A model generated the notes under the pieces. It saw only the letters and a program-made list of their open reading frames with translations, made no database searches and was not told where the DNA came from. From NCBI GenBank assembly GCA_021775095.1, contig JAJFII010000069.1:62001-126000 (forward strand): 64,000 bases of DNA, given 5' to 3'. This DNA is from Rhodospirillales bacterium. Its GTDB lineage: Bacteria > Pseudomonadota > Alphaproteobacteria > Rhodospirillales > Casp-alpha2. The translations under genes were made by a program, and so were the position numbers. Below are positions 13,218 to 44,055 of the stretch, one piece after another (the stretch's first letter is position 1; every line of letters begins with the position of its first letter).

Positions 13218-13637
<420 letters not shown>

Positions 13638-13664
13638 AATTTTTTTAGGATGAAAGGTCCGCCG

Positions 13665-39116: not shown

Positions 39117-39995
39117 ATGGGTTTCAGTCATTTGTTTGGCCAATATAAAAATCGGGTGAGACGGGTCTTGGTGGCGTTTGGTCTTGCCGCCTTGGTCGGC
39201 GGTTGCGCATTCGGTAAGGAAAAGAGCGACTACGTCGAACAACCGGTCGAAGACCTTTATAATGCGGCCATCGATCACATGCAAAAGGGCGAATATTCCT
39301 CGTCGACTGAAAAATTTGACGAAGTCGAACGTCAACACCCTTATTCCGTATGGGCGACGAAAGCCCAGTTGATGGCATCTTATGCCTATTATCAGGCGAA
39401 CCGATACGATGAAGCCGTAGTCGCCCTTGATCGTTTTATCCAATTACATCCCGCCAATAAGGACATCAGTTACGCCTATTACCTGAAGGCGCTCAGTTAT
39501 TATGAACAAATATCTGATGTGGCCCGCGACCAGAAGATGACCCAATTAGCCTTGTCGTCTCTGCGTGAACTGGTAAGCCGTTTCCCAAATTCCAAATATT
39601 CCAGAGATGCAAAAATAAAACTCGATTTGACCAATGACCATCTGGCCGGTAAGGAAATGGAAATTGGCCGATATTACCATTCCCAAAGCCAGTATCTGGG
39701 GGCAATTAATCGGTTCAGAGCCGTCGTCGAAAAATACCAGACAACAACCCACGTGCCAGAGGCCCTGCACCGCATGACAGAGGCCTATTTCGCCCTTGGT
39801 TTACCGGCTGAGGCTCGCAAAACGGCAGCCGTTTTGGGCCATAACTACCCGGGCAGCGAATGGTATATGGATTCCTATGATATGATGGAAAACAAAAGAG
39901 TACGGGTCAGCAGCAATGAGGACGGCGAAGACGTCGGTATCGAAGCACCGCCGGATGAAAAAGCAGCCTGGTATGAAATCTGGAAAAAGTTCTAG
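39117..39995 (+). CDS. bamD: Outer membrane assembly lipoprotein BamD (ComL)
   Basis: A 292-residue lipoprotein of the BAM complex that inserts beta-barrel proteins in the outer membrane. The signal peptide VLVAFGLAALVGGC ends in a lipobox with the lipidated Cys near residue 27. TPR-like repeats follow: LYNAAIDHMQKGEYSSS, FDEVERQHPYSVWATKAQLM, YYQANRYDEAVVALDRFIQLHP. HPYSxWATKAQLM is characteristic of BamD. The ATG at 39117 has AGGA only 2 to 5 bases upstream. The inverted-repeat element begins 8 bases after its stop codon. Confidence 0.95.
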   Translation: MGFSHLFGQYKNRVRRVLVAFGLAALVGGCAFGKEKSDYVEQPVEDLYNAAIDHMQKGEYSSSTEKFDEVERQHPYSVWATKAQLMASYAYYQANRYDEAVVALDRFIQLHPANKDISYAYYLKALSYYEQISDVARDQKMTQLALSSLRELVSRFPNSKYSRDAKIKLDLTNDHLAGKEMEIGRYYHSQSQYLGAINRFRAVVEKYQTTTHVPEALHRMTEAYFALGLPAEARKTAAVLGHNYPGSEWYMDSYDMMENKRVRVSSNEDGEDVGIEAPPDEKAAWYEIWKKF

Positions 39996-40003
39996 AACCT
40001 TGA

Positions 40004-40263
40004 GTCAGGACCCCTTAATTTCATGCAATTCTGTTTGTCCGTAAACTTGCGAATACAAGAAAACAAGAGCCAGGTCACACCGGGCCTATTCGAGCCTTGT
40101 TTTCGCCGTAGGCGTGAGCTTCTTGACAAACCCCTTGGGGCAGGGCGCTTTATCACTCTGGCTTCGTTGAAAAACTTAAAAACCGTGAGGTTTCCTGCGT
40201 CTTTCCGCCTGACCGATAAGATAAATCACCTCCGCAGAATGGATGAAATTAAGGGGTCCTGAC
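40004..40263. mobile_element. 260-bp MITE-like element with perfect 21-bp terminal inverted repeats
   Basis: The left end (40004-40024, GTCAGGACCCCTTAATTTCA plus T) is exactly repeated in inverse at the right end (40243-40263). Beyond the perfect 21 bases the ends stay similar (ATTCTG after a 1-base offset), so the true repeat is about 28 bp. The interior codes for nothing I recognise; a 79-codon frame inside has no family features. No clear target duplication is seen. Perfect long repeats around non-coding DNA suggest a non-autonomous transposon or the collapsed ends of an insertion sequence. It occupies nearly the whole bamD-recN gap. Confidence 0.75.
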
Positions 40264-40288
40264 CCTAGTAAAAAGGCTGCCCGAAGAG

Positions 40289-44055
<3,767 letters not shown>

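Follow-up and report, generated by a model that had tools for sequence, protein, structure and literature searches.

Between bamD and recN, the 64,000-nucleotide stretch of DNA analyzed here (the window) carries a 268-bp noncoding element that we interpret, with a probability of roughly 70%, as a non-autonomous DNA transposon of the MITE type whose inner fold has been retained through selection acting on spreading copies. A transposase of the IS427 group (IS5 family), acting in trans, would cut at the terminal inverted repeats (TIRs) and insert the element at TA, and two inner arms would constitute its functional part, probably acting as folded DNA (a cruciform or a single-strand foldback, pairing both ends) that displays conserved loops to the transposase or to some factor of the host, rather than as an RNA from which the host would benefit at individual sites. 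Bacterial MITEs are usually regarded as deletion leftovers of insertion sequences; here, the inside is better kept than the ends, the fold covarying across many alphaproteobacterial families and the supposedly sole necessary ends being replaced. The element works like a MITE, and its core is one that we have not found described for MITEs.

The perfect 21-bp inverted ends lie exactly where the first-pass annotation had placed them (40004-40024 and 40243-40263), with no other match to the 21-bp end in the 64 kb at up to 3 mismatches (mean of 100 shuffles, 0.00), and the looser similarity that it saw over about 28 bases reaches 29 nt at 90%. Comparison of 43 copies moves the boundaries outward (Table 1), such that 4 nt separate the bamD stop from the element and 21 nt lie between the element and the recN ATG; the 25 nt to recN given earlier is correct for a boundary at 40263. 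The consensus element reads TAGGGTCAGG...CCTGACCCTA, with TAGGGTCAGGACCCATTAATTT as the consensus end and with TIRs flanked by duplicated TA, and the left TAGG of the window copy has two changes. An internal 79-amino-acid frame was considered as a gene and rejected (65 codons are open in 25 of the 43 copies, and the rest differ, with 9 to 81 among the lengths printed); the frame varies among copies and the element is noncoding, in agreement with the original remark that no transposase lies inside. The window copy has 27 differences from a 273-nt consensus (flanks included) and the other 42 copies have 8 to 21, except for one, with an insertion, at 34; by its sequence, the window copy is old and partly decayed. 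Its own minimum-energy fold retains the outer stem, arm beta, and the small hairpin and does not, alone, form arm alpha as in the consensus.

Table 1. Features of the bamD-recN region, in window coordinates
Feature	Positions	Strand	Basis
bamD (outer-membrane assembly lipoprotein), upstream neighbor	39117..39995	+	ORF; similar gene directly before recN in relatives; name from the first-pass annotation
Whole mobile element, 268 bp with both terminal TAs counted (own-genome consensus, 269)	40000..40267	.	43 copies compared; much shorter gap in relatives
Left TIR with target TA (here TT)	40000..40024	+	Inverted repeat and copy comparison
Right TIR with target TA	40243..40267	-	Inverted repeat and copy comparison
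Arm beta and inner part of the TIR stem	40029..40130	+	Alignment A1, columns 30-172; seen in the window copy's own minimum-energy fold
Small central hairpin CCCC-TT-GGGG	40131..40140	+	Helix 4 of A1
Arm alpha	40141..40234	+	Arm model R1 (built from 38 arms, this one among them), 72.7 bits, E 1.1e-16
recN, downstream neighbor	40289..41986	+	ORF; matches in 55/61 genomes, own included

That this is a mobile element lacking a transposase, as originally proposed, is borne out by multiple copies, the TA duplication, and shorter, empty gaps in relatives. The window's own genome (5.92 Mb in 113 contigs) has 59 + 56 ends at up to 2 mismatches and 71 + 73 at up to 3 (0 for a reversed control pattern), corresponding to about 72 copies (144 ends), many of which are cut by contig ends. 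Forty-three distinct copies were read with both ends, 36 of them equal in length. The flanks are exactly YTA...TAR in 29 of the 43 and in 42 of 49 cases in other species, and since the variation at Y is independent of that at R, the duplicated part of the YTAR target is TA. The bamD-recN gap, which measures 293 nt here, is 28 nt and 26 nt in two genomes of the same genus (G001 and G003), 13 nt in G007, and 7 to 39 nt in the relatives' loci (a range given by the 12 of 29 loci with a properly read gap, the other 17 being left out); the insertion turned a spacer of ~27-28 nt into one of 293 nt. Short, devoid of a transposase, bounded by TIRs and a target duplication, and present in many copies, the element has the features of a MITE.

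The intergenic position could also suit a regulatory RNA or structure belonging to the bamD-recN region alone, and the first-pass annotation had named a single-copy conserved sequence at this site as the outcome that would speak against mobility. That outcome is excluded; with many copies elsewhere and no room at the site in the relatives read, such a single-locus structure retains practically no probability. The search with the ends that had been suggested at the same time recovered the other copies and, within the own genome, no autonomous parent: the single ends inspected inside contigs are truncated copies or bare ends.

Copies lie in long open frames less often than random sites do, both in the own genome (15/37 versus 308/400) and in other species (32/46 versus 460/500), copies too near a contig end (6 of 43 in the own genome and 5 of 51 elsewhere) being left out. 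Eight own-genome copies (L008, L011, L034, L042, L048, L051, L053, and L063) have a common flank, cagattcacgatacataagg or its reverse complement, with one variant base in two of them, so that the element repeatedly borders on, or lies within, a second repeat. At two further loci (L019, ~1240-1260, and L071, ~661-785), a second end-like motif, ggtcctgacccta / GGGGTCAGGACCCAT, occurs beside an element end or no more than ~100 bp from one, as though ends had inserted in tandem or been left behind. The window's genome measures 5.9 Mb versus 2.8 to 4.6 Mb in the same genus (G001 to G003), and in the class sample it contains 109 element ends versus 1 to 13 in the other 11 end-positive genomes, a lineage-specific expansion.

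REPINs, which are moved by RAYTs (Y1 tyrosine transposases), are inverted pairs of short palindromic ends, and the first-pass annotation had likened these termini to sequences seen beside REP-associated transposases. The inverted terminal motifs, short internal palindromes, and intergenic copies would fit an element of this kind, but the genome has 0 matches to Y1_Tnp (PF01797) in a search that was positive in 5 of 14 control genomes; there is thus no RAYT in the genome, the ends and size differ from those of REPINs, and the TA duplication and IS5-family ends speak for another enzyme, which makes a REP/REPIN origin exceedingly improbable.

An exact scan of species genomes located the 22-bp end in at least 99 stretches, mostly from Alphaproteobacteria, with Roseibium/Labrenzia, Thalassospira, Mesorhizobium, Paracoccus, Sulfitobacter, and one entry labeled Nitrosomonas among the matches listed. 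In Paracoccus zeaxanthinifaciens, a transposase gene begins after an end identical at 22 of 22 positions, and its first 66 residues (the only part used in the profile searches) match PF13340 (E 3.7e-17) and NF033580 (IS5 family; E 5.9e-19, below the model cut-off). Similar transposase starts follow the end, by eye, in Mesorhizobium/Devosia and in two relatives, G067 and G028; contigs break inside these insertion sequences (ISs), and that of P. zeaxanthinifaciens is seen from one end. With TA included in the lengths, IS5-family genes with similar ends on both sides are present in elements of 838 to 842 bp (G092, G011, and G068), in ISPaes2 (845 bp), and in a Haematobacter plasmid element (868 bp), and a 928-bp element in G252 has similar ends on both sides and a gene judged by eye to be of IS5 type. 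ISPaes2 is assigned to the IS427 group and is bordered by TA repeats (PMC3832669). The IS427 group (ISPaes2, ISPze1) resembles our element in its end pattern (like TAGGGTCNGGACYCATT) and its TA target duplication (PMC3832669 and PMC3281130), the ends having been read directly on an annotated ISPaes2 copy. It differs in that our element lacks a transposase and that nothing in the IS loci tested matches the arms of our element. ISPze1 was published from P. zeaxanthinifaciens, the species with the identical 22-bp end, and we infer that the IS bearing this end is ISPze1. An autonomous IS5-family element of another species thus has the same end, and the TA duplication and the ends of the GGGTC...GACYC type agree with the IS427 group of the IS5 family as their source. 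The element is MITE-like and probably trans-mobilized, and we have little doubt that it is a mobile element with IS5-type ends.

In the genome with ~72 copies, the search for a cognate transposase returned 0 matches to PF13340 and two weak matches to NF033580 (27 and 22 bits; cut-off, 110); the gene may have been lost or may lie within a repeat broken by the 113-contig assembly. The only DDE_3 (IS630-type) match in this genome lies near a contig end (L078, 958-2076; G000:C76), and this gene was rejected as the partner, there being no terminal inverted repeats in the stretch read. An 18-bp match inside a Gloeocapsopsis IS5 gene is probably due to chance.

The first-pass annotation missed a fold that is conserved throughout the class. 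Of 51 paired ends in other species, 39 are 266 to 269 bp apart, and blast sorts the interiors into two large groups plus singletons despite this near-fixed length. Nearly all of the folds seen, which cover part of a set of 62 sequences, have a common architecture, in which the TIRs form an outer stem that encloses two long arms with a tiny CCC-GGG hairpin between them; some decayed copies (L083 and L095, for example) depart from it. Each arm measures ~95 nt, and the second resembles the first when read on the opposite strand, which makes the element a dyad; in several elements, the arm model recovers the two arms, one on each strand. Alignment A1 comprises 38 of the 62 sequences (262 to 285 nt, <93% identical, with the window copy replacing the own-genome consensus), and RNAalifold predicts 72 pairs from it, 61 of which have at least one double compensatory change. 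Its cells are paired in 90.1% of cases, compared with 68.1% when shuffled and 30.7 to 47.5% when slid, with a covariation score of 0.562 versus 0.181 and at most 0.147, respectively, and none of five measures was reached in any of 500 shuffles. It is very probable that the fold is under selection and is not a by-product. The window copy has no match in Rfam 15 at an E value of up to 1, and six further element loci have none above the gathering score within the element; an overlap of mir-145 with one element (25 bits; gathering score, 50; E 0.2) reads as chance, and the IHF consensus, also tried, is found in 0 of 56 elements.

The same core occurs with different ends. An arm covariance model, built from one arm with the TIR columns left out, was run over 385 alphaproteobacterial genomes with 10 candidates scored per genome and strict filters, and the resulting counts are lower bounds: at least 27 genomes are positive. 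Twelve of the 385 have the window's end type (at up to 1 mismatch), 6 of these being arm positive as well, and at least 21 arm-positive genomes are without it. For 17 of the latter, the ends could be resolved through inverted repeats or copy comparison (G177, G292, G359, and G397 are not among them); those of G075 and G391 are GGGTC-like and those of G157 partly similar, and other end types include TAGAGCGTTTTCAGGG, TAGAGCATGATGTGG, TAGAGCGGTTCTTGG, TAGTGTGGTGCGCGG, TAGGTTGTATCGACAG, and ATACCAAGG. The full-length forms that were folded measure 260 to 275 bp, with one of 311 bp, and most have the common layout, which is absent from the lowest-energy fold of L366. Searches for partner ISs of the end types other than GGGTC, with 31- to 32-base queries against plasmids, found none and were uninformative. 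Clear arms are present on plasmids of Sphingopyxis alaskensis (82.8 bits) and Pseudosulfitobacter (78.3 bits), in stretches without listed genes.

Alignment A4, of 30 arms from 25 loci, consists mostly of loci with other ends (L266, L325, and L331 are GGGTC-like, L348 is partly so, and the ends of L334, L338, L343, L344, and L345 are unassigned). Its cells are paired in 90.2% versus 50.9% when shuffled, with a covariation score of 0.869 versus 0.200, figures that come from an alignment fitted to a model that presumes the structure, and its count of double-change pairs was matched by 37 of 500 shuffles. A whole-element alignment across different ends (A3) was misaligned, because stem lengths differ, and was not used. 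Comparison of 18 elements, based on the best-scoring arm of each and thus mixing the two arms in some pairs, yields 118 of 153 pairs whose ends are no more alike than shuffled ones and whose arms are still 46% identical (null, 26%); the remaining 35 pairs, with like ends, have arms that are 51% identical, slightly above 46%. Conversely, L187 and L084 have identical ends and arms that are only 45% identical. Unlike ends with like arms, together with the converse, indicate that ends and core have had largely separate histories and are largely decoupled; the conserved unpaired loop motifs and the total length persist across different ends. Six IS loci (L255 to L257, L105, L107, and L117) were compared with the arm model and none matched, so that for these loci we find no sign that the interior was derived from an IS by deletion, a result that concerns origin and not mobility. 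Lineages would, under our main reading, retain the core and acquire ends fitting different resident transposases. More speculatively, and with appreciably less conviction, the elements could form a class-wide superfamily in which the heritable unit is a folded DNA core (dyad arms, conserved loops, and ~267 bp) that exchanges its terminal repeats between transposition systems, the fold acting in single-stranded or cruciform DNA during transposition; they would then be structural parasites of many IS5-type transposases and not decayed insertion sequences.

The level at which the fold is selected can be approached through its symmetry and its decay. In the A1 elements, the energy of the top strand minus that of the bottom strand averages -0.01 kcal/mol, with the oriented strand lower in 19 of 38, and in the set with other ends the difference is -1.67, with the oriented strand lower in 11 of 18. 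An RNA made from one strand is expected to strongly favor G-U pairs; these constitute a median of 6.7% and 4.7% of fold pairs in two element sets, compared with 14.4% and 9.7%, respectively, in the only control RNAs, the host RNase P RNA and one SRP RNA, and the interior of the covariation alignment has 102 G-U cells and 70 A-C cells. The RNase P RNA gene that served as a control lies at window positions 13218 to 13641 (RF00010, 324 bits). Among the 43 own copies, paired sites have undergone 268 one-sided changes versus 12 two-sided changes that kept the pair, 7 of which are a single variant at one pair; two-sided changes total 16 against 10.2 expected, slightly above chance, and changes giving G-U number 59 versus 74 giving A-C. 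Paired sites change less than unpaired sites (0.035 versus 0.054), which, with the slight two-sided excess, makes some constraint after insertion possible. Individual copies decay with little evidence of upkeep, and the lineage keeps the fold across the class. Because the fold is strand symmetric and decays after insertion, we infer selection during propagation, the simplest reading being selection on copies that spread, with a role in transposition or another propagation step at the DNA level. Whether selection acts mainly at this level is, in our estimation, an evenly balanced question, and strand symmetry fits also with RNA made from either strand.

Selection could act on RNA if read-through transcripts folded, were processed in an RNase III-like manner as proposed for NEMIS, and regulated or insulated neighboring genes, with copies that are harmless in operons surviving. 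The window copy lies between two tandem genes on the same strand, its predicted RNA fold is very stable (-101.1 kcal/mol; z, -6.7), and copies fall within long open frames less often than random sites do. The folding energy, however, has no strand preference, G-U is no commoner than A-C among the within-genome changes, copies decay, and the open-frame bias may reflect plain selection against gene disruption; we therefore regard an RNA-level element as unlikely. If bamD and recN are indeed cotranscribed, their mRNA would contain a folded region, and an effect of the window copy on recN expression is possible. The earlier suggestion that the element provides a recN promoter or a bamD terminator found no backing in consensus scans of the element (0 and 0), such scans being weak.

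Alternatively, this could be an ordinary MITE whose palindrome is incidental and without function, the stems being kept matched by template-switch correction of quasi-palindromes or by conversion between arms. The stems are almost purely Watson-Crick (G-U makes up ~6% of canonical pairs, and A-C is not much rarer), as expected of a DNA-level process, but correction would erase the loops, and both loop motifs and length are conserved over different ends; furthermore, with 268 one-sided versus 12 two-sided kept changes in one genome, correction is hardly visible. We consider an incidental palindrome quite improbable, and selection on the copies that spread remains our preferred reading. Letters and ends change while the fold is kept, from which it would appear that the fold as such is important for spreading.

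Several known repeats resemble the element in part. (i) Correia/NEMIS, RUP, and ERIC are likewise short, noncoding, TIR bearing (several with TA ends), and mainly intergenic, with a stable transcript fold (PMC2229807), and MITEPye1 of Paracoccus yeei is a bacterial MITE with IS1182-type ends, unlike those found here. In PMC2229807, known bacterial MITEs are each associated with one or a few lineages, whereas here one covarying core of near-fixed length occurs class-wide with many end types. (ii) The CIR repeats of Caulobacter and Brucella are also alphaproteobacterial, intergenic, and two armed, but they measure ~110 bp and have no TIRs (PMC2229807), compared with ~267 bp and TIRs in our element. 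CIR repeats have GANTC at a terminal loop (PMC2229807), and GANTC occurs somewhere in 25 of 56 of our elements. (iii) RIME, Sm-repeats, and ABC palindromes of Sinorhizobium are alphaproteobacterial intergenic palindromes with conserved secondary structure (PMC2573895). The arm model had no match at an E value of up to 1 in four 50-kb stretches (200 kb) of Sinorhizobium meliloti pSymB. RIME1 measures ~106 to 109 bp. A literature search, which had most subscription journals outside its scope, found no published description of the element or of the shared core. A long-standing question becomes testable, namely, whether non-autonomous elements themselves carry functions, and so does the question of whether transposition by an ordinary DDE enzyme is aided by DNA folding; the arm model, moreover, can serve to annotate a class-wide set of repeats that we found unannotated.

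Variants in length were also encountered. Short forms of 175 to 204 bp occur at L324, L329, L337, L177, and L203, and, judging by their folds, L324, L329, L337, and L177 each retain a complete arm beside a reduced one, so that a single arm may be sufficient for spreading. In Brucella gallinifaecis, several elements (L158, 1025-1306; L166, 1511-1792; and L179, 545-826) measure 282 bp, others there measuring 268 to 270 bp; L158 and L166 have their extra bases within one arm and L179 has them at a different place, with equal total length.
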